A stretch of DNA of 64,000 nt from contig NC_092582.1 in the NCBI RefSeq assembly GCF_037975245.1, positions 268,001-332,000 on the forward strand. The letters run 5' to 3'. A program made the translations under genes and the position numbers. This document shows positions 3,057-55,668 of the stretch, one piece after another. The stretch comes from Apostichopus japonicus (lineage: Eukaryota; Echinodermata; Holothuroidea; Aspidochirotida; Stichopodidae). The notes below the pieces were generated by a model that was not told where the DNA came from, ran no database searches, and saw nothing but the letters and a program-made list of their open reading frames with translations. The first letter of the stretch is position 1. Each line of letters opens with the position of its first letter.

Positions 3057-3128
3057 ATTGGTGGTGCTTCAAATAAAGGACAAGCTGCCAGGATGTTTCA
3101 ACAAGTGAAAAGGAGCTTACCTTACAAG
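3057..3128 (+). CDS. PCL: PCL exon: PHD1-PHD2 linker
   Basis: 24 codons in phase 0 at both ends, reading [20 protein letters not shown]. This matches the linker before PHD2 in vertebrate PHF19 (GGALKKG...). The acceptor is ...ttgaag and the donor is AAG|GTAAGG. The 80-bp minisatellite starts about 40 bp downstream. Confidence 0.88.
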
Positions 3129-6100
3129 GTAAGGAAATTGAAGAACTGGTCTTTTAATATTACTTCATAACTTACCTGTCTCCTCACACACTCCTATCTG
3201 ATGTGCTCACTGCTCTGATACATTTGGCACTGTTATCTCCCTTACTTCCCACTTACCTGTCTTATCACATACTCCTATTTGGTGTGCACCCTGCTCTGGT
3301 ACATTTGGCACTGTTATCTCCCTTACTTCCCACTTACCTGTCTTATCACATACTCCTATTTGGTGTGCACCCTGCTCTGGTACATTTGGCACTGTTATCT
3401 CCCTTACTTCCCACTTACCTGTCTTATCACACACTCCTATTTGATGTCACCCTGCTCTGCTACATTTGGCGCTGTTATCTCCCTTACTTCCCACTTACCT
3501 GTCTTATCACATACTCCTATTTGGTGTGCACCCTGCTCTGGTACATTTGGCACTGTTATCTCCCTTACTTCCCACTTACCTGTCTCCTCACATACTCCTA
3601 TTTGATGTCACCCTGCTCTGGTACATTTGGCACTGTTATCTCCCTTACTCCCCACTTACCTGTCTCCTCACATATTCCTATTTGATGTCACCCTGCTCTG
3701 TTACATTTGGCACTGTTATCTCCCTTACTCCCCACTTACCTGTCTCCTCACATATTCCTATTTGATGTCACCCTGCTCTGTTACATTTGGCACTGTTATC
3801 TCCCTTACTTCCCACTTACCTGTCTTATCACATACTCCTATTTGGTGTGCACCCTGCTCTGATACATTTGGCACTGTTATCTCCCTTACTTCCCACTTAC
3901 CTGTCTTATCACACACTCCTATTTGATGTCACCCTGCTCTGCTACATTTGGCGCTGTTATCTCCCTTACTTCCCACTTACCTGTCTTATCACATACTCCT
4001 ATTTGGTGTGCACCCTGCTCTGCTACATTTGGCACTGTTATCTCCCTTACTTCCCACTTACCTGTCTCCTCACACACTCCTATTTGATGTCACCCTGCTC
4101 TGGTACATTTGGCGCTGTTATCTTCCTTATTTCCCACTTACCTGTCTTCTCACACACTCCTATTTGATGTCACCCTGCTCTGGTACATTTGGCGCTGTTA
4201 TCTCCCTTACTTCCCACTTACCTGTCTCCTCACACACTCCTATTTGATGTCACCCTGCTCTGGTACATTTGGCACTGTTATCTCCCTTACTTCCCACTTA
4301 CCTGTCTCCTCACACACTCCTATTTGATGTCACCCTGCTCTGGTACATTTGGCACTGTTATCTCCCTTACTCCCCACTTACCTCTCTCCTCACACACTCC
4401 TATTTGATGTCACCCTGCTCTGTTACATTTGGCTCTGTTATCTCCCTTACTCCCCACTAACCTGTCTCCTCACACACTCCTATTTGATGTCACCTTGCTC
4501 TGTTACATTTGGCGCTGTTATCTCCCTTACTTCCCACTTACCGGTCTCCTCACATACTCCTATTTGATGTCACCCTGCTCTGTTACATTTGGCGCTGTTA
4601 TCTCCCTTACTTCCCACTTACCTGTCTCCTCACACACTCCTATTTGATGTCACCCTGCTCTGTTACATTTGGCGCTCTTATCTCCCTTACTCCCCACTTA
4701 CCTGTCTCCTCACACTCTCCTATTTGATGTCACCCTGCTCTGCTACATTTGGCGCTCTTATCTCCCTTACTCCCCACTTACCTGTATCCTCACACTCTCC
4801 TATTTGATGTCACCCTGCTCTGTTACATTTGGCGCTGTTATCTCCCTTACTTCCCACTTACCTGTATCCTCACACTCTCCTATTTGATGTCACCCTGCTC
4901 TGTTACATTTGGCGCTGTTATCTCCCTTACTCCCCACTTACCTGTATCCTCACACACTCCTATTTGATGTCACCCTGCTCTGTTACATTTGGCGCTGTTA
5001 TCTCCCTTACTCCCCACTAACCTGTATCCTCACACACTCCTATTTGATGTCACCCTGCTCTGTTACATTTGGCGCTGTTATCTCCCTAACTTCTCACTTA
5101 CCTGTCTCCTCACACTCTCCTATTTGATGTCACCCTGCTCTGCTACATTTGGCGCTGTTATCTCCCTTACTCCCCACTTACCTGTCTCCTCACACTCTCC
5201 TATTTGATGTCACCCTGCTCTGTTACATTTGGCGCTGTTATCTCCCTTACTCCCCACTTACCTGTATCCTCACACACTCCTATTTGATGTCACCCTGCTC
5301 TGTTACATTTGGCGCTGTTATCTCCCTTACTCCCCACTTACCTGTCTTCTCACACACTCCTATTTGATGTCACCCTGCTCTGTTACATTTGGCGCTGTTA
5401 TCTCCCTTACTCCCCACTAACCTGTCTCCTCACACACTCCTATTTGATGTCACCCTGCTCTGTTACATTTGGCGCTGTTATCTCCCTTACTCCCCACTAA
5501 CCTGTCTCCTCACACACTCCTATTTGATGTCACCCTGCTCTGTTACATTTGGCGCTGTTATCTCCCTTACTCCCCACTAACCTGTCTCCTCACACACTCC
5601 TATTTGATGTCACCCTGCTCTGCTACATTTGGCGCTGTTATCTCCCTTACTCCCCACTAACCTGTCTCCTCACACACTCCTATTTGATGTCACCCTGCTC
5701 TGCTACATTTGGCGCTGTTATCTCCCTTACTTCCCACTTACCTGTCTCCTCACATACTCCTATTTGATGTCACCCTGCTCTGCTACATTTGGCGCTGTTA
5801 TCTCCCTTACTTCCCACTTACCTGTCTCCTCACATACTCCTATTTGATGTCACCCTGCTCTGCTACATTTGGCGCTGTTATCTCCCTTACTTCCCACTTA
5901 CCTGTCTCCTCACATACTCCTATTTGATGTCACCCTGCTCTGCTACATTTGGCGCTGTTATCTTCCTTATATCTAACTTACCTGTCTCCTCACATACTCC
6001 TATTTGATGTCACCCTGCTCTGCTACATTTGGCGCTGTTATCTTCCTTATTTCTAACTTACCTGTCTCCTCACATACTCCTATTTGATGTCACCCTGCTC

Positions 6101-9100
6101 TGCTACATTTGGCGCTGTTATCTCCCTTACTCCCCACTTACCTGTCTCCTCACATACTCCTATTTGATGTCACCCTGCTCTGCTACATTTGGCGCTGTTA
6201 TCTCCCTTACTCCCCACTTACCTGTCTCCTCACATACTCCTATTTGATGTCACCCTGCTCTGCTACATTTGGCGCTGTTATCTCCCTTACTCCCCACTTA
6301 CCTGTCTCCTCACATACTCCTATTTGATGTCACCCTGCTCTGCTACATTTGGCGCTGTTATCTCCCTTACTCCCCACTTACCTGTCTCCTCACATACTCC
6401 TATTTGATGTCACCCTGCTCTGCTACATTTGCACTGTTATCTCCCTTACTTCCCACTTACCTGTCTCCTCACACACTCCTATTTGATGTCACCCTGCTCT
6501 GCTACATTTGGCGCTGTTATCTCCCTTACTTCCCACTTACCTGTCTCCTCACACACTCCTATTTGATGTCACCCTGCTCTGCTACATTTGGCGCTGTTAT
6601 CTCCCTTACTTCCCACTTACCTGTCTCCTCACACACTCCTATTTGATGTCACCCTGCTCTGCTACATTTGGCGCTGTTATCTCCCTTACTTCCCACTTAC
6701 CTGTCTCCTCACACACTCCTATTTGATGTCACCCTGCTCTGCTACATTTGGCGCTGTTATCTCCCTTACTTCCCACTTACCTGTCTCCTCACACACTCCT
6801 ATTTGATGTCACCCTGCTCTGCTACATTTGGCGCTGTTATCTCCCTTACTTCCCACTTACCTGTCTCCTCACACACTCCTATTTGATGTCACCCTGCTCT
6901 GCTACATTTGGCGCTGTTATCTCCCTTACTTCCCACTTACCTGTCTCCTCACACACTCCTATTTGATGTCACCCTGCTCTGCTACATTTGGCGCTGTTAT
7001 CTCCCTTACTTCCCACTTACCTGTCTCCTCACACACTCCTATTTGATGTCACCCTGCTCTGCTACATTTGGCGCTGTTATCTCCCTTACTTCCCACTTAC
7101 CTGTCTCCTCACACACTCCTATTTGATGTCACCCTGCTCTGCTACATTTGGCGCTGTTATCTCCCTTACTTCCCACTTACCTGTCTCCTCACACACTCCT
7201 ATTTGATGTCACCCTGCTCTGCTACATTTGGCGCTGTTATCTCCCTTACTTCCCACTTACCTGTCTCCTCACACACTCCTATTTGATGTCACCTTGCTCT
7301 GTTACATTTGGCGCTGTTATCTCCCTTACTTCCCACTTACCTGTCTCCTCACACACTCCTATTTGATGTCACCCTGCTCTGCTACATTTGGCGCTGTTAT
7401 CTCCCTTACTTCCCACTTACCTGTCTCCTCACACACTCCTATTTGATGTCACCCTGCTCTGCTACATTTGGCGCTGTTATCTCCCTTACTTCCCACTTAC
7501 CTGTCTCCTCACACACTCCTATTTGATGTCACCCTGCTCTGCTACATTTGGCGCTGTTATCTCCCTTACTTCCCACTTACCTGTCTCCTCACACACTCCT
7601 ATTTGATGTCACCCTGCTCTGCTACATTTGGCGCTGTTATCTCCCTTACTTCCCACTTACCTGTCTCCTCACACACTCCTATTTGATGTCACCCTGCTCT
7701 GCTACATTTGGCGCTGTTATCTCCCTTACTTCCCACTTACCTGTCTCCTCACACACTCCTATTTGATGTCACCTTGCTCTGTTACATTTGGCGCTGTTAT
7801 CTCCCTTACTTCCCACTTACCTGTCTCCTCACACACTCCTATTTGATGTCACCCTGCTCTGCTACATTTGGCGCTGTTATCTCCCTTACTTCCCACTTAC
7901 CTGTCTCCTCACACACTCCTATTTGATGTCACCCTGCTCTGCTACATTTGGCGCTGTTATCTCCCTTACTTCCCACTTACCTGTCTCCTCACACACTCCT
8001 ATTTGATGTCACCCTGCTCTGCTACATTTGGCGCTGTTATCTCCCTTACTTCCCACTTACCTGTCTCCTCACACTCCTATTTGATGTCACCCTGCTCTGC
8101 TACATTTGGCGCTGTTATCTCCCTTACTTCCCACTTACCTGTCTCCTCACACACTCCTATTTGATGTCACCCTGCTCTGCTACATTTGGCGCTGTTATCT
8201 CCCTTACTTCCCACTTACCTGTCTCCTCACACACTCCTATTTGATGTCACCCTGCTCTGCTACATTTGGCGCTGTTATCTCCCTTACTTCCCACTTACCT
8301 GTCTCCTCACACACTCCTATTTGATGTCACCCTGCTCTGCTACATTTGGCGCTGTTATCTCCCTTACTTCCCACTTACCTGTCTCCTCACACACTCCTAT
8401 TTGATGTCACCCTGCTCTGCTACATTTGGCGCTGTTATCTCCCTTACTTCCCACTTACCTGTCTCCTCACACACTCCTATTTGATGTCACCCTGCTCTGC
8501 TACATTTGGCGCTGTTATCTCCCTTACTTCCCACTTACCTGTCTCCTCACACACTCCTATTTGATGTCACCCTGCTCTGCTACATTTGGCACTGTTATCT
8601 CCCTTACTTCCCACTTACCTGTCTCCTCACACACTCCTATTTGATGTCACCCTGCTCTGCTACATTTGGCGCTGTTATCTCCCTTACTTCCCACTTACCT
8701 GTCTCCTCACACACTCCTATTTGATGTCACCCTGCTCTGCTACATTTGGCGCTGTTATCTCCCTTACTTCCCACTTACCTGTCTCCTCACACACTCCTAT
8801 TTGATGTCACCCTGCTCTGCTACATTTGGCGCTGTTATCTCCCTTACTTCCCACTTACCTGTCTCCTCACACACTCCTATTTGATGTCACCTTGCTCTGT
8901 TACATTTGGCGCTGTTATCTCCCTTACTTCCCACTTACCTGTCTTCTCACACACTCCTATTTGATGTCACCTTGCTCTGTTACATTTGGCGCTGTTATCT
9001 TCCTTATTTCCCACTTACCTCTCTCCTCACATACTCCTATTTGATGTCACCCTGCTCTGATACATTTGGCACTGTTATCTCCCTTACTTCCCACTTACCT

Positions 9101-12100
9101 GTCTCCTCACATCTGTGGCTGTACAGTTTCCTTTTGAGTTAATCTTAATCAATCACTTGGGATATTTAAGTCATTCTTAATAGTCAGAATAGTGTTGTTC
9201 ATATATTATCTTTAGTCATTGGATTTCTTTTCAAATAGAATTGATGCTGATAACTTTGTTCATGTTCTCCATGTTGCTAATTGCATGTGGTTCATGATAA
9301 GATGACAATGTTCAGCTGATTTAATGTTGATTATTAGTAACTCATCTCTTTGATCAGTTTAGGGTTAACATATGTCATATTTTAGTGACTGAACATGGAT
9401 TTTTTTATGTTAAAAACGTCTTTTTGTAAGTAAAATTAAATAAAGTTGTAGTCTTCTTACTCTTTCCCCCATCAGATTGAGGATCTAAAATGGGATAAAC
9501 ATCACAGAACCAATTTACAGAAGTGTTATTGTTATTGTGGTGGACCAGGAGAGTAAGTATGCATGAATAGTGTGTTCCTTAAATCACCTTCTTACTCCCC
9601 CCCACCCCACCCACCCCCCTAATGATTTAATTGTGTGCCTGGCTTATATTATTTGGCTCGTAACCATCACTCTATGTGGTTTTAGTGAGATATAACTTTT
9701 TACCTAAAATTGTATACTCCAGTACAAGGAACTTGTATACCTGTCCCAGTATTACTTGTGCAGATATTTCCAGTCAACGCCACCATTGACCCACTATGAC
9801 CTACCCACACCTGCTACATCCCCTAAACTTATCGACAATAATGTGAATGAATTAGAATAGAGAGCCCTGTGTTCATTTCTATTACAGATGGTACCTTAAA
9901 ATGTTGCAGTGTTGTCGATGTATGCAGTGGTTTCATGAAGGTATTTTAAAGTTTGAATCCCTTTTCAGTTTTAAAGTGTGGTAATTTGGTTAAAGTGACT
10001 GTTGAATTATAATTTCATGATGTGTTATTGGTATGGGTACATAAAATGTAGACTTTCATGTTCTATTGCTATCAAACTCCGAAAAAAAAAATATACCGTA
10101 CATTCTTGAAAAACATTTTGAATTGATTTTTGTGTTTATTTGTTTTTCATTATAGCGTGCATTCAGTGCCTGTCGATGCCTATGCTGTACGGTGATAGGT
10201 GAGCTATGTTTGGTTATTGCTAAGTAGCCTCTCCTGAAGCACCAGGTGTAACATCTTTCTGTCTTGGCAAAAGGACTTCAAGACCCAATTTATTTCTACT
10301 TTACTAGTCAGAATCTCTCCTCGGTGTGTCCAATAGCCCAGATTTGAATACTGTTGATATGTTCAGAATGTAATGTAGTAGATGTGTCTGGGTCTTTTAA
10401 CAAGGGATGGAAGGAAATCCTTGTTATTCAGTGGTCACTGGCATTCCTTTGCCAGTGATATGTATTTATCTGATGATTTCATCTAACCTATTTGGGGAGC
10501 CTCTAATCCATGTAACACATCTGAGAACTGAGTTTTGCTCCCTGGCACCAGTAAGTAGGAGTAGGGATATAATGTAACTGAGCCAATTTATTAGATCTAT
10601 ACTGGCCATACTGAAGACCTCAGTAGTAATGCTCAGAAGCAGTATAGTTGTGCAACTTAACTAATGAGATCAAGTAATCAATTGGTTAACTTGAACATGA
10701 TTGAAATGAAAATTGTTGCTGAGGATTTATTAGATTATAACTTCCATGTAACCTTAATTGACAGTATTCCTTCTTTATGACTTGAAATGCAGACAAGTAC
10801 TGTCAGTATGTGGAGGTTATATCCTATAAGTCTGACAAGTACTGTCAGTATGTGGAGGTTATATCCTATTAGTCTGACAAGTACTGTCAGTATGTGGAGG
10901 TTATATCCTATTAGTCTGACAAGTACTGTCAGTATGTGGAGGTTATATCCTATTAGTCTGACAAGTACTGTCAGTATGTGGAGGTTATATCCTATAAGTC
11001 TGACAAGTACTGTCAGTATGTGGAGGTTATATCCTATTAGTCTGACAAGTACTGTCAGTATGTGGAGGTTATATCCTATTAGTCTGACAAGTACTGTCAG
11101 TATGTGGAGGTTATATCCTATTAGTCAGACAAGTACTGTCAGTATGTGGAGGTTATATCCTATTAGTCTGACAAGTACTGTCAGTATGTGGAGGTTATAT
11201 CCTATTAGTCTGACAAGTACTGTCAGTATGTGGAGGTTATATCCTATTAGTCTGACAAGTACTGTCAGTATGTGGAGGTTATATCCTATTAGTCTGACAA
11301 GTACTGTCAGTATGTGGAGGTTATATCCTATTAGTCTGACAAGTACTGTCAGTATGTGGAGGTTATATCCTATTAGTCTGACAAGTACTGTCAGTATGTG
11401 GAGGTTATATCCTATTAGTCTGACAAGTACTGTCAGTATGTGGAGGTTATATCCTATTAGTCAGACAAGTACTGTCAGTATGTGGAGGTTATATCCTATT
11501 AGTCTGACAAGTACTGTCAGTATGTGGAGGTTATATCCTATTAGTCAGACAAGTACTGTCAGTATGTGGAGGTTATATCCTATTAGTCAGACAAGTACTG
11601 TCAGTATGTGGAGGTTATATCCTATTAGTCTTAAGTCAGAGCATACTTTTCTTTTCTTCTTTTAATTTTATTCAACATAATAATGGTACTGAAATGTGTC
11701 TTGAATGATGATCGATGACAACTGCTAATGATGAAAGTGTATTTCTTCAATGAAGCTCATCATCCTCTGAAGATCAATCTCTCACCATCTCTTTGATTAA
11801 TCTCTCACCATCTCTTTTTATTAATCTCTCACCATCTCTTTGATTCTCCGAAGATCAATCTCTCACCATCTCTTTGATTAATCTCTCACCATCTCTTTGA
11901 TTAATCTCTCACCATCTCTTTGATTCTCTGAAGATCAATCTCTCACCATCTCTTTGATTAATCTCTCACCATCTCTTTGATTCTCCAAAGATCAGTCTCT
12001 CACCATCTCTTTGATTTTCTGAAGATCAATCTCTCACCATCTCTTTGATTTATCTCTCACCATCTCTTTGATTCTCTGAAGATCAATCTCTCACCATCTC

Positions 12101-21100: not shown

Positions 21101-24100
21101 TTGCAACTCTAAATAGCCACTCCTAGAGAGGAATAAAAGATATCTGCTGAGTAAACTTTTTGCTTTTGATTCCAAATGAAGTTTGTATAATAATAGGTTT
21201 TGTTACATAATGACTGGGATATACTTTCTACTCCTTTAGTACATCTCCTGTTCCGACAAGTGTTATAAAGAGAGGTAGGAAGAGCAAGCAACTCACCAAA
21301 GAGGATATTGAGAAGAAGACAAAACTAGCAAAGAAACAACTGCTAGCTGCAACCTCTTCTGTAAGTATCTCATGACAGGACAATTCCATTTGTCATTTCT
21401 TGCAGCACAAAGTACAGCAGTCAACCAAACCCTTTTGGGTTTTTTCTCTGTTATCAATGCAATTGATCAAACTTAAGACATACTCTGGAGAATATGGAAT
21501 AATATAAAATCAGTAAGTCATGTGGAAACGAGTGTCTGGTCAGTTACCCTAAGTTCATTCATACTTATAAGTTAAATTCTTGAATATGATTGGCCCTATG
21601 TCATCAGCTCACCGTGCATATGGATAATGCATGGTAAACTCACTGAAGGATTAATATAAGTTACACACAAAACAGTAAAGTATCCCAATACCAGCTAGCT
21701 GCCTCAGATTATTCAAAGCAAACATATCATATTAAATATGGTATGGCAAAAAGCCTTTTGGTATAAACACCCCTTGACAACATGATAATAATTTTTTTTT
21801 GAGAAAGCTAGCTTTCAGCCTGAAGTGTACTTACCATTACTAAGCCTGAAGTGTACTTACCATTACTAGCCTGAAGTGTACGTACCATTACTAGCCTGAA
21901 GTGTACTTACCATTCCTAGCCTGAAGTGTGCTTACCATTACTAGCCTGAAGTGTACTTACCATTACTAGCCTGAAGTGTACTTACCATTACTAGCCTGAA
22001 GTGTACTTACCATTACTAGCCTGAAGTGTGCTTACCATTACTAGCCTGAAGTGTACTTACCATTACTAGCCTGAAGTGTACTTACCATAACTAGCCTGAA
22101 GTGTACATACCATTACTAGCCTGAAGTGTGCTTACCATTACTAGCCTGAAGTGTACTTACCATAACTAGCCTGAAGTGTACATACCATTACTAGCCTGAA
22201 GTGTACTTACCATTACTAGCCTGAAGTGTGCTTACCATTACTAGCCTGAAGTGTACTTACCATTACTAGCCTGAAGTGTACTTACCATTACTAGCCTGAA
22301 GTGTACTTACCATAACTAGCCTGAAGTGTACATACCATTACTAGCCTGAAGTGTACTTACCATTACTAGCCTGAAGTGTGCTTACCATTACTAGCCTGAA
22401 GTGTACTTACCATAACTAGCCTGAAGTGTACTTACCATTACTAGCCTGAAGTGTACTTACCATTACTAGCCTGAAGTGTACTTACCATTACTAGCCTGAA
22501 GTGTACTTACCATTACTAGCCTGAAGTGTACATACCATTACTAGCCTGAAGTGTACTTACCATTACTAGCCTGAAGTGTGCTTACCATTACTAGCCTGAA
22601 GTGTACTTACCATAACTAGCCTGAAGTGTACTTACCATTACTAGCCTGAAGTGTACTTACCATTACTAGCCTGAAGTGTGCTTACCATTACTAGCCTGAA
22701 GTGTACTTACCATAACTAGCCTGAAGTGTACATACCATTACTAGCCTGAAGTGTACTTACCATTACTAGCCTGAAGTGTACTTACCATTACTAGCCTGAA
22801 GTGTACTTACCATTACTAGCCTGAAGTGTACTTACCATTACTAGCCTGAAGTGTACTTACCATTACTAGCCTGAAGTGTACATACCATTACTAGCCTGAA
22901 GTGTACTTACCATTACTAGTCTGAAGTGTACTTACCATTGCTAGCCTGAAGTGTACTTACCATTGCTAGTCTGAAGTGTACTTACCATTACTAGCCTGAA
23001 GTGTACTTACCATTACTAGCCTGAAGTATGCTGTGCAACTGAGTTATACCACTGTTTGTGTATTAACCTGCAATAAATGCACAGCAGACGTTGATTAACC
23101 CTGGTTATATAAGTTTACCATTTTAGTAATTAGTTACCACATGGAATTGGTTACTTCATCTTGAAACCACTGTTATTTCAATCAGCATTGATAGTTCAAA
23201 TTTAAAACCATAAATATTGATCTAGCTTAACACCACCAGTCTCAGTGACATCACACATTGTGGTAATTGTAATTACCGAACAAGGATTGTCAATTAGTCT
23301 ATGTCTTGCTAAACTTTTCAAAATCCACATTTGTAACACTGTCACTTTTGTGCAGGTTCTGTATCATTCTTACATACAGTATGCTCTTGAGAGGACATAT
23401 TTATTACTTAGTTTTCAGCTACTCTTTCAATCTTGTTGATGGTTTCTCCTTTGCTGCAATGCTTTGACATATTTCATAATGGTTTTATGTTGAGCAATGG
23501 TGAACATCTCCATTAGTATTTGGATGAAAGATAATCACAAGAATCACTGTCGCAATAGACATAACTCCAAAATTGTTGTCCTTCTATTTGTAGAGTAGAA
23601 ATCCACAAGTTCACATTTTTTCCTACTATTTCAGAAGAACAAAGTGGGGAGACCTCCAAGTGTTAACCAAAGCTACCAGGGGTATGCAGGGGGAGTTCCA
23701 CCATCGCCGAAGGTGCGACGTACTTGTGGTGGTCCTTCCATTTTAGACACCATTGAACCTCTGGAGGAGGCTCTTGAGAGGAGTCGACTAATCACCATCC
23801 ATCATCCTCGTTGTTTTGCACCACAGTCAAGTGTCCACTTTCAACCTCTCACTGCAACTAATAACATTTCCCGAACAAATAATCAAGAAGTGCCTAAACT
23901 CAAGAAAAAACGAGGGAGAAAACCAAAGCATTCCAAACTGGAAATACCAAAGATAAAAAAGAAGAGGGGAAGAAAACCCAAGCACCGGCCGCCAGAGGAT
24001 TTACAAACCATAGACATTAAAGAGAAAGATACAGTAGAGAGTGAGAACTTGGAATCTGACCAAGCATTAGAATATGGGAATGGGGGCACACAAAACAAGA

Positions 24101-24246
24101 TGAGAACATTAATCAACTCTGTGACATCGTACTTTGGAGCAGAGGGGAGGATTGCTAGTGGAGAAAAGTACAAAGTGTTAGCAAAGAGAAAAACAACCAA
24201 TGGTAAATTTCAGTATTTAATAGAATGGGAAGGAACCACCCCCTGA
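3057..24246 (+). CDS. PCL: Polycomb-like protein (PHF1/MTF2/PHF19 family), 5'-partial, 10 exons
   Basis: PRC2 accessory subunit of chromatin. The family binds H3K36me3 by Tudor, unmethylated CpG DNA by the extended-homology (EH) domain, and SUZ12 by its C-terminal chromo-like domain. Exons joined: 3057-3128, 9476-9552, 9888-9940, 10156-10198, 14524-14592, 16493-16616, 18955-19019, 19480-19656, 21240-21360, 23635-24246. All junctions are GT-AG and phases agree throughout (1413 nt, 470 codons plus stop). In the partial protein, PHD2 has ligands C43, C45, C58, C61, H66, C69, C88 and C91. The EH region spans about 105-195 with the lysine loop KEVKKKK. Two KKRGRKPK motifs lie near 357-384 and the chromo-like end is about 425-470. 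Tudor and PHD1 (about 170 residues in relatives) are not seen in 1-3056 and should lie upstream. The gene is single in the window; which vertebrate paralogue it matches best cannot be said, as expected for a pre-duplication orthologue. Confidence 0.95.
3170..9113 (+). repeat. 80-bp minisatellite, about 74 units
   Basis: Unit runs ...cccttacttcccacttacct gtctcctcacacactcc tatttgatgtcaccctgctc tg(c/t)tacatttggcgctgttat ct. It fills almost all of the PCL intron 3129-9475. The first units are 81 bp (tttggtgtgcaccc) and diverged. Units from about 6430 to 8800 are nearly identical, and the last few diverge again. Shorter units occur near 6430 (79 bp) and 8070 (78 bp). The reverse strand of nearly every unit carries CAGGTAAGT, a full 5' splice-site consensus. 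Confidence 0.97.
9476..9552 (+). CDS. PCL: PCL exon: start of PHD2
   Basis: Encodes [13 protein letters not shown] followed by CYCYCGGPG, the hallmark start of the second PHD finger in PCL proteins. The acceptor has a strong pyrimidine tract (tctttcccccatcag) and the donor is GA|GTAAGT. It leaves phase 2, completed as Glu by the next exon. Confidence 0.95.
9888..9940 (+). CDS. PCL: PCL exon: PHD2 core
   Basis: Encodes [18 protein letters not shown], nearly identical to the vertebrate PCL PHD2 core. It contains zinc ligands 3 to 5 (CxxC and His). The donor G|GTATTT is weak. Confidence 0.95.
10156..10198 (+). CDS. PCL: PCL exon: PHD2 middle
   Basis: Encodes [15 protein letters not shown]. The family has ACVQCLQKPMLFGDR at this position. 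The donor is AG|GTGAGC and phase is kept with both neighbours. Confidence 0.95.
10791..11631 (+). repeat. 42-bp minisatellite, 20 units
   Basis: Unit gacaagtactgtcagtatg tggaggttatatcctattagtct, almost perfectly conserved, in PCL intron 10199-14523. Because 42 is a multiple of 3, it stays open and mimics a 292-codon ORF repeating [14 protein letters not shown]. Variation is limited to t/a in the last triplet and ataag in place of attag. Confidence 0.97.
11766..13683 (+). repeat. Composite minisatellite of ~21-bp and ~32-bp units
   Basis: A higher-order array built from tctcaccatctctttgatta a and tctcaccatctctttgattc tccgaagatcaa, mostly alternating (about 53 bp) with irregular runs. It lies in the same PCL intron as the 42-bp array, separated by about 130 bp. 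The C/T-rich strand is the sense strand. Confidence 0.93.
13684..14523. other. Intron sequence, no gene seen
   Basis: T-rich. Open frames of 82-109 codons here have low-complexity hydrophobic translations and lie inside the intron before the exon at 14524. Confidence 0.5.
14524..14592 (+). CDS. PCL: PCL exon: end of PHD2
   Basis: Encodes [19 protein letters not shown], the last CxxC of PHD2 and the start of the EH region. The acceptor is tttgttttgcag and the donor is TG|GTAAGG. Confidence 0.95.
14646..14833 (+). repeat. ~95-bp tandem duplication
   Basis: Two copies share atatccagtatcacactgca and gaacttacaagtccaaagat. A diverged relative is at about 31,970-32,060 (tcaaagatgtatagcagtt), so the source is an interspersed repeat. 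Confidence 0.75.
15497..16437 (+). repeat. 47-bp minisatellite, 20 units
   Basis: Unit acctctcttttatgttgt(a/c)c tggattaggtgggtagaaca tactgtt. It ends 55 bp before the PCL exon at 16493. Two site variants (a/c in gtNctgg and t/g in ctgNacc) are interspersed, which suggests several rounds of local expansion. Confidence 0.97.
16493..16616 (+). CDS. PCL: PCL exon: EH winged-helix, first part
   Basis: Encodes [14 protein letters not shown], then KKYF and NEKWTRLQ, matching the WVDIAHLCLYNL...KKYF...NENWDRL pattern of the EH domain. The donor CAT|GTGAGT is the first unit of the minisatellite that fills the next intron. Confidence 0.95.
16617..17660 (+). repeat. ~20-bp GAGTATCATGTATA minisatellite starting at a splice donor
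   Basis: Units of about 18-24 bp run (c)tgtgagtatcatgtatacat aa at the start and ctctgagtatcatgtatata taa later. It begins exactly at the 5' splice site of the exon ending at 16616 (CAT|GTGAGTATCATG). A SINE-like sequence interrupts it at 16,941-17,154. Confidence 0.92.
16941..17154 (+). mobile_element. 5'-degenerate tRNA-derived SINE inserted in the minisatellite
   Basis: From about 16,973 to 17,153 it matches the SINE at 35,332-35,555: gtttgagtcactcc, agattaatgtatgtcgtcca g, attcataatcatgg, gactgacttc.gtcagctt and gaggaggatctaa. The tRNA head is eroded and only a box-B remnant (ttgagtcact) is left. The array continues on both sides, so the SINE arrived after the array formed. Confidence 0.75.
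17955..18290 (+). repeat. 42-bp minisatellite, about 8 units
   Basis: Unit agctcactccggtaggcgca aaattgatctaatgtatgta tt, in the same PCL intron as the previous array. Open frames on the minus strand ([14 protein letters not shown] repeated) come from the period being a multiple of three. Confidence 0.9.
18955..19019 (+). CDS. PCL: PCL exon: EH middle
   Basis: Encodes [20 protein letters not shown], the divergent helix before the lysine loop. It fits by phase and by the leading LA and SE positions of the family. The acceptor is tttctttttgccag. Confidence 0.88.
19480..19656 (+). CDS. PCL: PCL exon: EH CpG-binding loop
   Basis: Encodes [20 protein letters not shown] then VPP, matching SGKEIKKKKHLFGLR...PPVPP of MTF2. 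The lysine run is the wing that contacts unmethylated CpG in the family, so DNA binding is probably kept. The 42-bp minisatellite begins about 8 bp after the donor. Confidence 0.95.
19665..20925 (+). repeat. 42-bp minisatellite, about 30 diverged units
   Basis: Unit cagtttcagaagtgctttat tactctgtaattgctagtac tt. It starts only about 8 bp after the PCL donor at 19657. Each unit carries a sense acceptor-like stretch (tttcag|aag or gttacag|aag). Divergence is higher than in the other arrays, so it is probably older. Confidence 0.93.
21240..21360 (+). CDS. PCL: PCL exon: basic linker
   Basis: 41 codons, rich in Lys and Arg ([19 protein letters not shown]), with a likely helix at the end. The acceptor is ctcctttag and the donor is TCT|GTAAGT. 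It has no named domain. Confidence 0.9.
21812..23031 (+). repeat. 25-bp minisatellite, about 48 units
   Basis: Unit ctgaagtgtacttaccatta ctagc fills the middle of PCL intron 21361-23634. Variants are gtgctt, gtacat and cataac. The reverse strand reads ATGGTAAGTAC, close to a 5' splice-site consensus. Confidence 0.97.
23635..24246 (+). CDS. PCL: PCL last coding exon: basic repeats and chromo-like domain
   Basis: Starts in phase 0 with KNKVGRPP, as in MTF2 (KKKSVGRPP). The middle has two near-identical blocks [13 protein letters not shown] and [13 protein letters not shown], which are AT-hook-like, then an acidic stretch. The end has [25 protein letters not shown] and YLIEWEG, the C-terminal chromo-like domain that binds SUZ12. 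The stop is TGA at 24244-24246, one or two residues after the usual end of the family. Confidence 0.95.
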
Positions 24247-24642: not shown

Positions 24643-25899
24643 TAATCTAGTTTCTGGGCTGGCAATTAAAAGAAGGTACCAGTAGGATTTGACAGTGGTG
24701 CATCAGATGGCCCTCACAACAGATCTAATTTCTGGGCTGGCAATTAAAAGAAGGTACCAGTTAGATTTGACAGTGGTGCATCAGATGGCCCTCGCAACAG
24801 ATATAGTTTCTGGGCTAGCAATTAAAAGAAGGTACCAGTTAGATTTGACAGTGGTGCATCAGATGGCCCTCACAACAGATATAGTTTCTGGGCTAGCAAT
24901 TAAAAGAAGGTACCAGTTAGATTTGACAGTGGTGCATCAGATGGCCCTCACAACAGATATAGTTTCTGGGCTGGCAATTAAAAGAAGGTACCAGTTAGAT
25001 TTGACAGTGGTGCATCAGATGGCCCTCACAACAGATCTAGTTTCTGGGCTAGCAATTAAAAGAAGGTACCTGTAAGATTTGACAGTGGTGCATCAGATGG
25101 CCCTCACAACAGATCTAGTTTCTGGGCTGGCAATTAAAAGAAGGTACCAGTTAGATTTGACAGTGGTGCAACAGATGGCCCTCACAACAGATCTAGTTTC
25201 TGGGCTGGCAATTAAAAGAAGGTACCAGTAAGATTTGACAGTGGTGCATCAGATGGCCCTCACAACAGATCTAGTTTCTGGGCTAGCAATTAAAAGAAGG
25301 TACCAGTTAGATTTGACAGTGGTGCATCAGATGGCCCTCACAACAGATCTAGTTTCTGGGCTGGCAATTAAAAGAAGGTACCAGTAGGATTTGACAGTGG
25401 TGCATCAGATGGCCCTCACAACAGATCTAGTTTCTGGGCTGGCAATTAAAAGAAGGTACCAGTTAGATTTGACAGTGGTGCATCAGATGGCCCTCACAAC
25501 AGATCTAGTTTCTGGGCTGGCAATTAAAAGAAGGTACCTGTACGATTTGACAGTGGTGCATCAGATGGCCCTCACAACAGATCTAGTTTCTGGGCTGGCA
25601 ATTAAAAGAAGGTACCACTTAGATTTGACAGTGGTGCATCAAATGGCCCTCACAACAGATCTAGTTTCTGGGCTGGCAATTAAAAGAAGGTACCAGTTAG
25701 ATTTGACAGTGGTGCATCAGATGGCCCTTGCAACAGATCTAATTTCTGGGCTGGCAATTAAATGAAGGTACCAGTTAGATTTGACAGTGGTGCATCAGAT
25801 GACCCTCACAACAGATCTAGTTTCTGGGCTAGCAATTAAAAGAAGGTACCAGTAAGATTTGACAGTGGTGCATCAGATGGCCCTCACAACAGATCTAGT
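24643..25899 (+). repeat. 78-bp minisatellite, 16 units, in PCL 3' flank
   Basis: Unit ttgacagtggtgcatcagat ggccctcacaacagatctag tttctgggctggcaattaaa agaaggtaccagttagat. It starts about 400 bp after the PCL stop. The 26-codon period gives false ORFs (LTVVHQMALTTDLVSGLAIK). Each unit has the variant poly(A) signal ATTAAA in sense. Confidence 0.96.
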
Positions 25900-45180: not shown

Positions 45181-45765
45181 CTATGTACAAGCTTTGGCTC
45201 TAGCTATGAAGTGCTGTGTCTTATGAAAATGACGGAGCGCAATAGTTTTCAACTGGAATCGCCCGAAGATGCGGCGTCTGTAATCCGAGGAACCAACGAA
45301 CTTCTCTGTTAACTCCTCAGGCTTCAACTGGGCTAGACGTTCGCGGTGAATATAGCACACCATCACATGGTTCAGCCTCTGTTGAGTCATGGTGCTCCGT
45401 AGCCATGTCTCCAATCGCCTCAAAGCACTAAAAGATCTCTCGGCTTCCGTCCAACTGGCGGAGGAGACGAGGAGCAACCACAAGAGAGCTTCGACTTCAC
45501 CAAACATAGCCCGTACCGCTGGATTCATCAACTTGAATATTTGTCTATACCCTTCAACCGACAACAACTGGAACTGGCCTCGAAAGAAAGGCAGACTAAG
45601 CTTAAGATTGTCGGAGAGCTCATGGTAACAACTCACGAGATCTGGGTGGAATTCTCCATTCAGCAACATTGAGTGATATTCGATGATATGAATCCTGAGA
45701 TGTGTAAGTCCTAACCAAATAGAGACACGACATAACTCTTTTTCCAAATGTGTATGTGTGTGTGT
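45181..45765 (-). CDS. hAT transposase C-terminal fragment (ZMYM-like)
   Basis: An open frame of about 190 codons encodes the C-terminal dimerisation region of hAT transposases: SSASWTEAERSFSALRRLET, then WLRSTMTQQRLNHVMVCYIH. This matches the family pattern AERSFSALRRLKTYLRSTMxxxRL. No frame break is seen, so it is relatively young. The N-terminal zinc finger and catalytic RNase H part are absent: upstream the frame runs into a (GT)n/poly-G stretch at 45,750-45,860. The translated Gly-rich start from there is not real protein. It ends at TAG (45,181-45,183). It could be the remains of the element that mobilises the nearby hAT-like MITEs. Confidence 0.8.
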   Translation of the reverse strand, partial: THTHTHLEKELCRVSIWLGLTHLRIHIIEYHSMLLNGEFHPDLVSCYHELSDNLKLSLPFFRGQFQLLSVEGYRQIFKLMNPAVRAMFGEVEALLWLLLVSSASWTEAERSFSALRRLETWLRSTMTQQRLNHVMVCYIHRERLAQLKPEELTEKFVGSSDYRRRIFGRFQLKTIALRHFHKTQHFIARAKACT

Positions 45766-45880
45766 GTGGGGGGGGGGGACATTTGCTATTGTTTCCCCCA
45801 CCCATCGAAATGTGGGGGGCGTGTCCCCCGTCCCCCCGTCCCCCCGTCCCCCCGTCCCCCCTGGATTGACGCCCATGCCG
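45766..45880. repeat. G-rich tandem CCCCCGT and (GT)n next to a CATGGGCGTCAATCC terminus
   Basis: Four or five copies of cccccgt, a GT run, and the reverse terminus ggattgacgcccatg at 45,863-45,877. The same terminus, with g for t, is at 43,133. Confidence 0.6.
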
Positions 45881-46223
45881 TCATCCCCACTTTTCAATGT
45901 TTTAAGCCCATTTTGTTCAGAATTTGAATAATAAATTCACTTCATAACATGCCCATAATGTTGCACAAAATATCATCTATGGACAACCAATTCAACCCCT
46001 AACAGACCGGTCAAAATTGCACGAGTAGAGGGAAGTATGATGGAGAATGTTGGTCAGGGAATTTTCGAAAATTCAGACACAGTTAATTTATTAGTGTACA
46101 AATATTAAAACCTCTTATAACGGCTACTATAAAACTTCGATATCATAAAAAAAATACAAAAAATATGCTCGAGGGGGGGCCTCCCCCTTCGCCCCTGGCT
46201 ACGCGCCTGCGGTTAGAAATCTT

Positions 46224-49269: not shown

Positions 49270-49273
49270 CCGG
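49270..49273. repeat. Target-site duplication CCGG, left
   Basis: Directly precedes the TGT terminus; identical to 55,665-55,668. Confidence 0.65.
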
Positions 49274-49460
49274 TGTGACAGTACAGAGTGTCCCCCTGTA
49301 CAAAGTGTCTCCGCGGACACTTTGTACCAGCATATTTAGTCCGGTCGGACATTATCTGCTGAAAATTGTGTCCCACCCTCACAGCAAATATAGTCCCACC
49401 GGACGAAATGTCCTGGTACAGAATGTCCGCAAATACTTCATAGCATATTTTGTCCCGCAT
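49274..49460 (+). repeat. Left terminal inverted repeat made of palindromic words
   Basis: Contains GTACAAAGTGTC...GACACTTTGTAC (perfect 12-bp arms, 6-nt loop, about 49,298-49,327). Words GTCC/GGAC, TGTAC/GTACA and agcatatttwgtcc then recur, each inverted copy separated by 2-6 nt. Confidence 0.8.
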
Positions 49461-49469
49461 AAAATTTAA

Positions 49470-52400
49470 GCATTTCGATATTCAAAAGGCAATTGAGTTC
49501 ATTATATCAATAATTAGAGCAGATGCATACGTCAGAGTTAAATGTTACAGGAAATAAATGAGACGTTGTGCGTTGCTGCAAAACAAAAAATAGAACGGGA
49601 AAAAAAGAAGAAAAAGAAACAAGTCTTCCATCTGTAGAAGATGTTAATCATGTTTTTGTTGTGATTGCTGCTATGTTATCCTCCGTATATGTTGCATTTT
49701 GTATTCGGCAACTACATTGCGTTCATAGTCATCTTTACAGAGGGAGAGATAGTATAAACCTAACTTCCTCCCCCAACGGAGGGCGGGTACGGGATAGGTA
49801 ATGCAACAGCTACAACAAAATATGATAATTGCAGAGGTAAAATATTACGAACTTTAGGAGTCCAAACTTCATTTTTTCCGTATTTCCCTGACACACAGTG
49901 GGTAAGTTTTGGCAAGTATGGTAACTGTACTTCATGGGTCTACGAGAGTTGCCTAGCCAATATGAAATTTCATCCGTGCGTAAAGCTCATTATAGGACGG
50001 GAAGTTACCGAGAGTGTTTTCAAGTTACATCCTAAATGAAATCGGCAACGCTATATACAAAGCTCAGGCCCATACACATAATTTTGAGTGCAAGGATAAG
50101 GGGGGGGGGGAGTTGGGATGGTAAGTTATCGAATTTGTGTCCTGGGGAGGGGTCTTCTTAAGTCTGTGACCTATCTGTGATGAGTTCCAAAATATTTTTG
50201 TTTGCTAATAACAACCGTGAATTAGCTGGAAGATACTTCTCTGACCTTGAAAATGTCAACACTGCCCCAACCCTCTCCGTATGGGCTTGACACCTATTTA
50301 TTGACTTTCATTACTACTTTATTGTTTACTTTTTAACCGTTCCTTATTTTTGTCACTCAATCGTCGAGTCAAGGTTTTCTCCCTCTCAACAGGGTGGAAG
50401 GACATTCCCCCACCCCTGCCCCCTAAGCCCGTTGTGATGGCCATGCGCGAAGCAAATCTTCATTTGTATAGACAAATGGCATTCCAGGCAATTCCAGTGA
50501 TAAAGGTTTGTTGTTTCTTATTATGAAGGTTTCTTATTGGACAAAAGTGGTTCAAATTAGAAAAGATGTATTAGACAATATTCTCTTCAAAAGAGCTGCA
50601 AAACATACAGGAAACAAAACAAAGCCAAACAAGGGAAAGAATAAAGCAAATAGGACAGAGCAGGATGCAATATGCTAGATTTGTTGTCTCATCATGTTTC
50701 TCACACTTTAAATATGTCATTCTTGTAGAGAAAAGTTTGTTTAAAGAAAGTTAATATAGTAAAAATCAAAACATGAAATTGGATGATAGTCATGCACAAA
50801 CACAATATTCTGAATCTATATCAGACTGGGCAAAGAGTGAAAAATGATTATACATGGGATCAGGGAGCCAGGAGCCGGGGGGGGGGGGGGGCACTGTCTG
50901 TACATACTATTTTTAAAATGGCATCCCATATCTTTTTATAGCAAGGTTAACAATAAACAATCTCAATAAATAGTATTGATAACATACTAACACATCATAT
51001 ATATTTAAGTGATATGGCCGGTGTGTATCGGTTTATAGCATAACGAGTGGTGGTTGTGGAATGAGAAAATGTCCCTCTGATGTTGTGTGCCCACACCCAT
51101 TTCCTACCCCCTGCATGGGGAAATTTAACTGGAATGATGACTCTCCCTTTGTAGCTCTGATGCAACTAAAGATAATCCATGCTTTCTAGAGCATCCTTCA
51201 AGCAGGGAGGTATTGCTTGGTTAGAATGATATACTACTGTCACTCTTCTTCAAACAATATGTACTTGAAACTCTCATAATCCACATGAAGAAAATCCTCT
51301 TTAGAGTTTGGTAAAGACCTCAATAAAACCATGCAGAAGTTTCCCTATTAGAATCCCCCCCCCCCCCCCTTGAACTGCTTTCCACAGACAGTAAGATAAA
51401 ATGCTTTAATGTGCAACTTGATACCGTCAAAAGTTAAATCTTGATTGTAAATTACAAAATAAAATAGCTGATTCTCATGTATCCAACGGGTTTTTCGTTA
51501 AGACTTACACAGAAATCCATAACAGCAAAAGTTACAACAGGAAGCAGAATATGGTCAGTTATATGTTTTACTATGAGAACTTATCTTGAACACATTTTCC
51601 AGAACCAAGAAACACGCCTTCGTATTTGTTATTTAATGAAGTAATGAGGTGATAAAGAATTTCAAGCGTCACAACCCTTCAACTTGACCTGCAAATATAT
51701 GGATTTCCACCGAACGACTGGCAGTGAAAAGTCAATGGCCTCTCTTTGCTTAAACATATAGCAGCCGACAAAGTTTTCTCTCATGATATGTTAGAGTGAA
51801 AGACAAGATTATTGTCGGTAACAAGTTAACTGCTAAGAAAATCGTCTAGACATGTCTTCTGTTAACTTCATACATACTCCCTCCATTGGTGGTCAGAGAT
51901 GAGATATCAGTACAACCAAATCTGAGCAAAATAAAAGTTGAAAGCAATATTATGAGTAGTGAATGCCACACTGTAAGTCATATATAAAATAAATTATCAT
52001 CTTGAAAGGTTATGTGTAAGCTCCACTACAAAGATAATTAACATTCACCATATTGGTTAAGTGTAGACTGTATAGTGTACAACTGAACTATGCTTAGGCA
52101 TTGAGTTAATTGGATGATCTTTTATTGTGACACTTACATGTTTATGGGAATACTGGGTCCATTTTTTTAATTGGAGATTGCATGTCATAATTTTGGCGCT
52201 ATATTGTACAGTTCACTACCAAACCTGAAAAGTTTTAACCACATGAGCCAATACAACATTTGTGACATATTAATGAAATTTAATATCAGAAATTTATCAA
52301 ATTAGCTTAAGCTAGGATACAACAGAAGTTTGATGCCTTTTGGTGCTCTATTGATGTATGTGTGCATGGCATGACTGTTTAATGCCGATCAAACATTAAT

Positions 52401-53240
52401 TATCCTGAATCAGGATCCATGGGGGTTCAAAACACCCTCTCTATGACCCAAATGCAAAACCAAATAATGCTAGCTAACCATTATTATGGTAAAATGTACT
52501 ATTATACATCATTTTGCGTCAAGAGACCTAAACATTGCCCTATTTTGCCAAAACAGAGGGTCCCTCTCCCAGGTTTCAGGAAATATCCCCCCACTATACA
52601 CACAAACACATTTAGCAATTTTCCACAACGGACCTAACAGAGAAATGGTACCAAAACTCAGTTGATACATTATCTATCTTATCTTGTCGAAGTTCCTGTC
52701 AAAACAGCCAATTAGTAATAAGTTCACACTTTCTAAACAGAAAAGTTCCCTGTGGTTACAATATCAAACTGTCCAACACCTTTTTGAAAAACAACACACA
52801 AAAGGTGGTGTCTAGCTGTGGAATGTGGTCTTAATTATTTACTCATCATTTGTTTGAACAAATAAACTGTGTCTGCTGCAGTGAAACATGTCCAGCCAAA
52901 ATCACTTTTTGGGGATGTAAATTAAATGACGACAATTGTCAGGCTATATGCTACTTAAAAACCAGAGGTGGAACCTTTGCAAGTAAATATAGGAACAAAA
53001 ACTACTTACATATAAACTTGTTAATGGGGACTTAACCTGCAAAGATTTACAGTACACTTTCTCGGTTCTCACCTACCTTCGTGACCTTTCTGTATGCTTA
53101 ATACCTATTTGGAAATAGAATAGAATAGAATCTGCCATGCACTACAAGTTATTTGCATGGTACAAATAACAGATATGATGCCATTCATATTGGAACTAGT
53201 TACTAACTACAGAAAATTGTTCACTTTTTAAGACATGCTT
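49470..53240. other. Interior of the GINGER element, no coding remnant recognised
   Basis: No integrase D or E motif was seen on the minus strand. Poly-G and poly-C runs lie at 50,100, 50,877 and 51,355. This part may be replaced or heavily eroded. Confidence 0.45.
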
Positions 53241-53242
53241 AC

Positions 53243-53404
53243 CTCATCATCACATCAGTAATGAAATAAGAAGTTGATGCTGCAGTCTTGTCAGGCACTG
53301 CCTTAGCCTGTCTCAGGCCACTTTGAATAGAAGTCAGACAGTGTTATCATGTACAGTCGATTGGCAGCTGTCACTGGTAGAGGACCAATAAGATCAACAC
53401 CAAC
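53243..53404 (-). pseudogene. GINGER integrase exon, catalytic core start, frameshifted
   Basis: Minus strand after cttaacag: VGVDLIGPLPVTAANRLYMI then TLSDFYSKWPE, holding the first catalytic Asp (VDLIGP) of an integrase core. A 4-bp insertion after WPE shifts the frame. After it AKAVPDKTAASTSYFITDVM continues to an intact donor AG|GTAAGC. The continuation with the second Asp and Glu was not found. Confidence 0.75.
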
Positions 53405-54081
53405 CTGTTAAGAAAGAAGACAGCATTTAGGTGCTAATTTAATTTTTTTTTACAAGTTGCAGGCTTTGCCTTGACTGTTGTTCTATTCCATTGCTTCATG
53501 CTGTACACAGATCTAGATAAAAACAGTGGGATATCTGATCGAAACAGGATGTTGGTGGATTTAGGCCAATTATTTTTACCTTGCAAATATGAAAATGTAA
53601 CTTACACCATACTGTACCATATATTTACAATCGCTTCAACCACTAAACCAGTAAAATGATACGCCACTTTTTGCAACTTACAATTACATGCGGCAACATG
53701 CCTATATTGATGGTTGCTCTGCAGTTAGGCCAGAGTGTGGCTTAAAGGTTTGCTGTATGGGCCCTAAATATGCCAAATTTTCACTTTGGACAAAATTCTG
53801 TAAGTATGTTTATATCCCTGAAGGAAATTTACCTCACTGGGACATTCAATCATCTCGTGTCATCATTTAGAATGTCTGAGCACAATTTAAAGGGTTATTA
53901 CCCCCAGAAAAGTACTTTTTGAAAACTTCTAGCAACTAAAGTGGCCAAAATTTAGGGCCAATACAGACTACCGTTAAACTTGTAAATGTTTAATTTGTCC
54001 AGAAAGAATGACATTAACTAAACTAAACCTTCACTGCATACTGCGGACATCCTGTGCAATTAAAACAGATTGAATATTTAC

Positions 54082-54258
54082 CTGTTTCCATAATCCAGTT
54101 ACAGGAATGCTATGGAGACTTGTTCGTAGGTCTACATGACAATGACGCTTTGACATCCTGTTGAACATAACTTGTTACATCATCGTTGATAGTTTTCCAA
54201 TAGAATCTAGACAATAGACATAGTCTGTTGTCTGGTTTATCTATGCAAAGATGAACAC
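54082..54258 (-). pseudogene. GINGER integrase exon, zinc-binding H2C2 region, frameshifted
   Basis: Minus strand after ctttgaag: HLCIDKPDNRLCLLSRFYWK then TINDDVTSYVQQD, matching the H2C2 finger (FYWxxxxxDVxxYV). A frame change follows, and RTSLHSIPVTGLWKQ, the usual bridge before the core, leads to the donor CAG|GTAAAT. Confidence 0.72.
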
Positions 54259-55145
54259 CTTCAAAGAGATAAGAAAATTCATGATCAAAGGAGATATGTT
54301 TTTTTGCCCCCCCCCCCAAAAAAAAACCACAAGCAAACAAACACACACAAATATATGGGCTGCAGAATTGGTAGTTCTAGCTGAAGTGCCTTAAAATTGA
54401 ATTACAACTCTATATCAGTGTTTGAAATGGAATATTCCCATTATTGTACACATTGCTTGGCCACAATTGGGATCTATAGATATTTAAGAAGTTTTCTTCT
54501 GCAGTGAGGTTTGGCATGTAGAGAATATGCCACACCTAAAAAAAGTACTATCAGGCCTTCAATAATATATCTGTTCTTACCAACCAAAATTAATGAACGT
54601 GAATTTATTATGTACAGTATTAGTGCCACTTTCCTCTAGAAGTAGGCTCGGCTATATGCTATAGTCCAATAATTGCATTTTATAGTGTCCCATGCATGCA
54701 AACCAGACTAGTTCTCTAAGCTTTAGTAATCTGTTGTTATCTTTTATGATAGGCAGGGCGATTAAAGGTGGAAATTTATAATAATTGTCACAAAAATTTG
54801 TTTGGGTAAACAATTGGGTAAACAAAACGAAAAGAAATAGGCCCTAATAACTTTGCTCAAGCATACAACTGATTATAATGTTGCACAAGCAATTGCTTGA
54901 CTTTTGCGAATGAGTTTTTACAACTAACCAAACGTGGTAAAAGAATATCATGATTTGTTCACCAAAAAGGTCCTAGAGGCCTGGTTATAGTTTAACTGTG
55001 GAATGGCCGTTCGCCATTTAACAACCAAAGGCATACTGTGTATCCTATACTGTAAGTTACAGACATTACCTTATAGATGTCACTAGTCAGTGTGAGCTGC
55101 TTCGATTTGGGCGAGTTGAGTAGCCCTAGATAGCAACACTTTCCT

Positions 55146-55391
55146 TCAATTTCGGTACGCAAGAGTTCCATTTTCAGCCAGTCTGAAAGACTGACTTTGT
55201 CTCCGTAAGATTCTTCTCTGTTTTATTCTTGTAAACCCACTTGGATAGCTCTCATCTCTTAGAATATCCGCAATTTGTCTCACGTTTTCTGCTAGCTTTT
55301 CCGTTTTTAGTTGTCGCACGACTTTACTGCTAAATATACGGAAGCCGAAATGCGACAATTTGCTAATAATACGGATACTGCCAGAGTCCAT
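55146..55391 (-). pseudogene. GINGER integrase first exon with premature stop
   Basis: Starts ATG at 55,391 and encodes IADILRDESYPSGFTRIKQR then RILRRQSQSFRLAENGTLAY. This is the N-terminal YPxGxxxxxRRxxRRxxxxFxLxxGxLxY pattern of GINGER, KRBA2 and GIN1-type integrases. An in-frame TGA at 55,146 follows YRN, and the same frame then continues RKVLLSRATQ, so the stop is a decay mutation. Confidence 0.75.
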
Positions 55392-55429
55392 TACTAATTA
55401 AATTTTTGCTACTCGGACGTACATGCTAC

Positions 55430-55664
55430 GGCGGACATTGTGTTCAGGGGGACACAATTTACAACAAAATATATGACCGTCAAATAATGTCCCCCTCCGT
55501 GTAACCATAGCATATTCTGTCTGGGGAGACAGTCTGTACCAACTGGCCTTGTACAATAGGTCCGGGGAGACCAAACGTACTGGTAAATCCAGTATAAACT
55601 GTCCTGTGGGACCGGGACAGTTTATCCTGAATATGGAATATTTGCGACAGTTTGTACTGCTACA
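55430..55664 (-). repeat. Right terminal inverted repeat made of palindromic words
   Basis: Same style as the left end: aaactgtcc...gggacagttt, tgtctggggagaca, ggtccggggagacc and agcatattctgtc. Only the outer 20 bp or so aligns clearly with the left end, so the inner palindromes have been rebuilt or exchanged. Confidence 0.75.
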
Positions 55665-55668
55665 CCGG
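55665..55668. repeat. Target-site duplication CCGG, right
   Basis: Directly follows the ACA terminus; identical to 49,270-49,273. Confidence 0.65.

Follow-up and report, generated by a model that had tools for sequence, protein, structure and literature searches.

The window analysed here is a stretch of 64,000 nucleotides from Apostichopus japonicus (NCBI RefSeq assembly GCF_037975245.1, contig NC_092582.1, positions 268,001 to 332,000 of the forward strand; C22:268001-332000 in the contig numbering used below). The feature under study is a transposable element of 6,391 bp at window positions 49274-55664, which has the termini TGT...ACA and is flanked by CCGG on either side. The element is very probably a complete copy of a young, non-autonomous family that descends from a Ginger1-type element and has lost the second half of its transposase gene; an enzyme encoded elsewhere probably mobilised this copy. 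An integrase-like transposase from another locus would bind arrays of the 12-bp motif GTACARANTGTC at both ends of the element, and the bound enzyme would pair the ends and insert them with a 4-bp stagger at CCGG. The features of the element are given below by window position and strand; L050, L052 and L053 are loci of the same genome that are treated further on.

49270..49273, unstranded: left target-site duplication CCGG (same 4 bp on both sides in 27/27 insertions with outer flanks read)
49274..55664, minus (strand of the gene remnant): whole element, 6,391 bp (other copies align end to end, flanks unrelated)
49274..49292, plus: left terminal inverted repeat TGTGACAGTACAGAGTGTC (15/19 against the inverted right end)
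49281..49427, plus: left array of GTACARANTGTC in both orientations, element positions 8, 25, 43, 128 and 143 (motif count; inverted pairs also detected)
49460..51853, plus: left interior (no homology to L052/L053 except one 36-bp piece, E 0.001; no Pfam match)
51854..51921, minus: remnant of exon 4, ~68 bp, start of the second half of the DDE core, with indels (alignment to exon 4 of L052; coordinates placed by hand)
53243..53404, minus: remnant of exon 3 (VGVDLIGPLP..., with the first catalytic D), frameshifted through a 4-bp insertion (L050 match; splice borders by eye)
54082..54258, minus: remnant of exon 2, part of the H2C2 zinc finger (weak Pfam match and L050 match; splice borders by eye)
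55070..55391, minus: remnant of exon 1, with ATG and a frame open for 81 codons to a stop, the remainder in another frame (frame reading; splice donor by eye)
55434..55657, minus: right array of the 12-bp motif, 7 copies (motif count)
55646..55664, minus: right terminal inverted repeat TGTAGCAGTACAAACTGTC, read inward (comparison of ends)
55665..55668, unstranded: right target-site duplication CCGG, pairing with the left CCGG (read in the window)

Boundaries, target sites and copies of the element

The genome searched comprised 671.6 Mb in 35 contigs, from which 20 further loci were first fetched with a probe starting with CCGG. In 19 of these 20 copies the alignment covered the first through the last base of the element, the remaining one (L023) being without a right end. 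The alignment query ended at the element edges, so that the stop of homology was shown by comparison of the flanks instead. Within the 100 bp outside CCGG, 18-32 of 100 positions were equal to those of the window in the left flanks (20 loci) and 15-32 of 100 in the right flanks (19 loci), which is about chance. The flanks of other copies are thus unrelated beyond the CCGG, the stop of homology at both element ends is borne out, and homology running past 49,274 or 55,664, which an earlier note on this DNA had named as refuting its reading, was not seen.

Target sites were determined by scanning the fetched loci for element ends; 26 insertions were paired by script and the outer flanks of an array on C19 (L033 and L030) by hand, and L013 (right side a junction) and L023 were left out of the count. 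The duplication was identical on both sides in 27/27 insertions (CCGG in 23; CCTG, CCCC, CAGG and CCGC in one each), among which L012 and L019 have a common flank and may be non-independent. As the non-CCGG pairs are identical too, this is a true duplication and not merely a palindromic target. With the ends lying at the bases given in the earlier note and with these duplications, its description of a full-length Ginger-type element flanked by duplicated CCGG stands. The base outside the duplication was G in 24/30 left flanks and C in 26/28 right flanks (hand count, single-sided sites included), a bias that suggests GCCGGC as the favoured target sequence. An empty site was also found in an uninterrupted paralog at C17:17746800, to which the L015 flanks align once they are joined at a single CCGG; 146 bp of this paralog were read, and they pass through the site with one CCGG.

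The L015 insertion sits at the start of a small open frame (MTRTTL...) resembling a secreted protein (MTRTTLFGVLLCGSLLLNSA), and the locus (C17:15376263-15384763) holds two elements ~110 bp apart, one of them within the start of that frame. L012 and L019 represent one common site occupied by members of different subfamilies. Similar flanks with different family members at the same CCGG site were observed at C17:17746946-17783407 (L052, L053, L054) and C17:15384369-15392242 (L036).

Genome-wide searches with the terminal 19-mers (at most two mismatches) yielded 164 left ends (reversed control, 16) and 170 right ends (reversed control, 14); the 100 left ends listed were all exact, as were 97 of the 100 right ends listed. 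Among the 100 left ends listed, at least 70 have a partner among the listed right ends no more than 30 kb away, and 54 of 70 paired copies among these listed ends measure 6,162-6,433 bp. The family has about a hundred or more similar copies in the genome. Pairwise identity, with gaps ignored, is ~98-99% outside clusters, 99.2-99.9% in three clusters, and ~96% for L019, which is taken to be an old family member.

The left end TGTGACAGTACAGAGTGTC and the inverted right end TGTAGCAGTACAAACTGTC are identical at 15/19 positions and at 8/41 of the positions that follow (ungapped), a drop that sets the inverted repeat at only ~19 bp; a gapped alignment of the ends can be extended further. The motif GTACARANTGTC (at most two mismatches), which was picked after inspecting these same ends, occurs five times in the left 220 bp and seven times in the right 280 bp, against means of 0.075 and 0.15 in 200 mononucleotide shuffles, and three times in the element interior, against a mean of 2.45 in 20 such shuffles. 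Both ends are thus far above shuffles, in line with the palindrome-built termini reported before. Each of two natural mini-elements, 125 and 176 bp long and with the same ends and CCGG duplications, carries five copies of the motif (0.06 and 0.08 on average in shuffles); in L052, six lie in the right 280 bp (shuffle mean 0.13). The arrays are candidate integrase binding sites, a role made more plausible by the five motif copies kept in elements as small as the two minis. With L019 set aside, variation across 19 copies is low in the terminal 200-bp bins (0.03 left and 0.042 right, with 0.03-0.115 for all bins), in a set of copies chosen by left end and with a few interior bins equally low.

Gene remnant and a fuller relative

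Three exons with GT-AG borders and with integrase motifs of the GINGER type had been described on the minus strand of the element. The borders are present for exons 1-3 (by eye), and the exons themselves are remnants. Exon 3 is shifted by a 4-bp insertion that occurs, among the 20 fetched copies, only in L009 and L018 besides the window copy. By eye, the open frame of exon 2 excludes the second cysteine pair of the finger. Homology of the window copy to L052 ends near 51854, after ~68 bp of exon 4. Neither Pfam nor tblastn with the exons of L050 detected, in the window copy, the catalytic E, the GPY/F domain or the bulk of the DDE second half; the second-half exons of L050 gave best E values of 1.1 (DDE) and 9.9 (GPY/F, window copy) against the element copies, with rows inspected for 8/27 sequences. 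Pfam gave no match to a C-terminal OTU or Ulp1 protease domain when six frames of the window copy were searched, with five open frames of L052 sampled. As read from the sequence, the transposase gene of the window copy is broken and its second half is missing; with exon 1 stopped, the finger incomplete and exon 3 shifted, the spliced transposase gene that had been implied for this copy is not upheld; the earlier note had not recorded these defects.

The integrase motifs are matched by a related gene rather than by Pfam, which on the window exons gave a weak H2C2 match only (E 0.0064, below the cut-off; E 0.087 in a second search). A Pfam search of six frames of the window copy with X at stops gave nothing besides, and exon 3 had no Pfam match and no PDB match. 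L050, a Ginger1-like gene with several exons that lies elsewhere in this genome, gives matches to H2C2 (E 1.4e-17) and, under the cut-off, to a portion of the integrase core (E 3.4e-5). Exon 3, as present in the L010 copy, matches the L050 gene at 53% (E 4e-17) and, by eye, shares its borders; exon 2 matches it with E 1e-4.

A fuller relative, L052 (C17:17746946), has an exact right end with CCGG, followed by exon 3, an open DDE exon and a GPY/F-like stretch. Its exon 3 is 75% identical to that of the family and its DDE exon 59% to that of L050, and exons 3 and 4 joined match Pfam rve with E 1.1e-7 and 32.5 bits, the cut-off being 32.6. The presence of an integrase core in L052 supports Ginger1 descent, though the window copy is without the core. 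Of the L052 gene, which reaches ~7,220, the element family retains 147-3705. L052 is itself decayed: exon 1 is matched only as a piece with a stop, exon 2 is interrupted, and a stop lies inside the GPY/F match.

No left end of L052 was found within L052/L053. At C17:17746946-17783407 two outer ends are separated by 36.5 kb, the left end there (L054) having an outer flank that resembles that of L036 (by eye), and the stretch from L052 to L054 is possibly a large, nested or tandem insertion. Among the 150 of 1,184 candidates scored in a search for L052-type DDE exons, only two were found, C17:17750438 (open frame, rest of the gene decayed) and C4:28964954 (89% to that of C17, one TGA), the next-best candidates standing at 59%. 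When the genome was searched with Pfam rve, the element family did not stand out among the 150 of 1,112 candidates scored. Longer copies were also considered as carriers of an intact gene; L036 (7.87 kb) proved to be a family member with ~1.7 kb of foreign DNA inside, L045-L048 were diverged members with indels, and a 7.9-kb member on C1 was read at its right end only. L049 (94% to exon 3, 117-aa frame) belongs to the family too, but is truncated at both ends and has no DDE match.

Comparison with known systems and alternative readings

In PMC2836005 (Bao, Kapitonov and Jurka 2010), Ginger1 elements are described with a 4-bp duplication of CCGG or CCGT, TGTNR ends, inverted repeats of 40-270 bp and sizes of 2.6-7 kb, and their transposase with an H2C2 finger preceded by a YPYY motif, a DDE core, a GPY/F motif and a C-terminal OTU or Ulp1 protease domain. 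The present element agrees with that description in its 4-bp duplication (27/27 identical pairs, 23 of them CCGG), in its TGTNR ends (TGTGA and TGTAG), in its size and in a multi-exon gene with GT-AG introns, for which the integrase core and GPY/F are matched in the relative L052. It differs from it in ends that are arrays of a 12-bp motif, in the apparent GCCGGC target, in the head-to-tail arrays described below and in a gene that is a remnant: the window copy lacks the combination of H2C2 finger and DDE core, GPY/F is seen only as a match with an internal stop in L052, and OTU or Ulp1 protease is absent from the six-frame Pfam search of the window copy. With CCGG and TGTNR on one side and the repeat length and the lack of an intact transposase on the other, the element is regarded as Ginger1-derived and Ginger1-like in action, not as a standard member. 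Several points weigh against the assignment to a Ginger1-derived non-autonomous family: the continuous inverted repeat measures ~19 bp and not the 40-270 bp given for Ginger1 in that text, Pfam alone does not identify the window exons as integrase, the DDE-exon candidates scored (150 of 1,184) brought up no autonomous partner that is intact and has these ends, and the left 2.4-2.6 kb of the element is unexplained in origin.

The protein lineage is the same as that of GIN1/GIN2 (PMC2836005) and Imagin (PMC12863088), the latter being described with finger and core retained and catalytic residues lost, as well as without inverted repeats. These are host genes, whereas the window element belongs to a dispersed family with a decaying reading frame. 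The AT-rich RTATAY target of Ginger2/TDD is not what is seen here, where targets are GC-rich and mostly CCGG. In non-autonomous families, including those resembling miniature inverted-repeat transposable elements, the transposase is lost internally and the ends are retained. The 125- and 176-bp minis, with the ends and the duplication of the family, conform to this; unlike such families, the main amplified form here is long and still includes the initial portion of the gene region. Among the titles and abstract openings listed in a literature search there was no paper on such a family, which may already be catalogued in repeat databases.

A Gypsy-type long terminal repeat (LTR) retrotransposon, or a fragment of one, would also have integrase-type exons and TGT...ACA ends, and the genome is rich in integrase cores, many of them in open frames of >1,000 aa taken as Gypsy-type pol (150 of 1,112 candidates scored). 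This origin is nevertheless extremely unlikely, and it was rejected on the absence of direct repeats in self-comparison and of any pol match: the ends are inverted, which also answers the earlier question of LTRs instead of terminal inverted repeats, no reverse transcriptase, RNase H or protease was matched by Pfam in any of six frames, and the intron borders are common to the Ginger1-like gene L050 (by eye). It is very unlikely, too, that the element is autonomous, with a transposase encoded in an unusual way (other splicing, frameshifting) and its breaks tolerated. Exon 1 is stop-free in 19/20 copies and exon 3 unshifted in 17/20, as that would lead one to expect, but the Pfam and tblastn searches given above (8/27 sequences inspected) did not recover GPY/F, the catalytic E or the greater part of the DDE second half, the exon-bearing 200-bp bins vary by 0.045-0.105, within the range of all bins (0.03-0.115; the same 19 copies), and three copies identical at 99.8-99.9% carry a common frameshift and have still spread. 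Loss of the second half of the gene, with movement by an enzyme made elsewhere, is the reading retained.

Junctions in which one element end meets another over a 4-base spacer were searched for with at most one mismatch (control 0). Four were found, one on C1, one on C8 and two within a C19 array of three members; all are exact, have CCGG as the spacer and join a right end to a left end. If elements landed at random on CCGG, ~0.02-0.07 adjacent pairs would be expected for 100-200 copies (at the CCGG density of the window). The C8 partners measure 6,381 and 6,288 bp and the second carries a gap at 756-820 as in L019, which places them in different subfamilies; those at C1 are probably of different subfamilies as well, on the weaker grounds left by an unread interior. 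Within the C19 array, the 250-bp ends that were compared differ by one base at most. The C8 and C1 junctions are best explained by double insertion, in which a second element would insert at the CCGG of an edge and produce an element-CCGG-element pair in head-to-tail order; a further element can insert in this way because each insertion leaves a fresh CCGG at both edges. The C19 array may come from unequal exchange.

Bacterial elements of the IS3/IS30 type form a circular intermediate with abutted ends. That the head-to-tail pairs arose from such an intermediate, and not from two insertions at one CCGG, is unlikely, even with the order being head-to-tail and exactly one CCGG separating the ends in four of four junctions, the C19 ends nearly or fully identical, and chance adjacency as low as stated. 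The unlike partners at C8, and probably at C1, point to two insertions, a trimer can come from unequal crossing-over, and head-to-head palindromes may be lost. In PMC12368964, with reference to McGurk and Barbash (2018), class II elements are described as often showing head-to-tail double insertions, which likewise speaks against the circle. The broader proposal, that Ginger1-type elements transpose via a circle with ends abutting across CCGG, where the motif arrays would assemble the integrase, and that the arrays are integrated multimers, is quite improbable; if true, Ginger would be a copying system, IS3/IS30-like or retroviral-like, and not cut and paste. PMC2836005 describes the excision mechanism of Ginger1 as unknown.

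The near-identical young copies, the minis, the empty site and the candidate 12-bp binding motif are substrates with which Ginger1 excision can be tested; the 125- and 176-bp minis bound the requirements in cis, and the head-to-tail arrays discriminate between circle-based and double-insertion models. In other respects the family is a case of ordinary transposon decay and mobilisation in trans.

Other Ginger-like sequences and the surrounding window

L050 (C12:11104000-11111000) and L051 belong to a second Ginger1-like gene family, with open DDE exons that lie mostly in 137-aa frames and have equal scores. These exons recur every 100-229 kb close to contig ends (C19:31.17-32.30 Mb, C20:0.34-1.40, C21:0.26-0.44, C14:0.22-0.63, C11:0.20-0.53 and C4:29.05-29.43 Mb), and stop-bearing or shorter relatives occur in interior clusters, e.g., C12:14.8-17.3 Mb. 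The second family may represent a gene of Ginger descent that is part of large subtelomeric repeats. At C23:5797612-5797902 a Ginger-like DDE stretch, 55% to L050, lies within a stop-free open frame of 507 aa.

Elsewhere in the window, an open frame of 251 aa at 45181-45936 on the minus strand resembles the C-terminus of a hAT transposase (by eye), and one of 215 aa at 23599-24246 on the plus strand contains basic repeats resembling AT hooks and ends in a chromodomain-like stretch (by eye). Dense, long tandem arrays occupy 3170-9111, 10792-11631, 21817-23027, 24645-25899 and other parts of the window, an example being an 80-bp unit in 74 copies with 97% matches.

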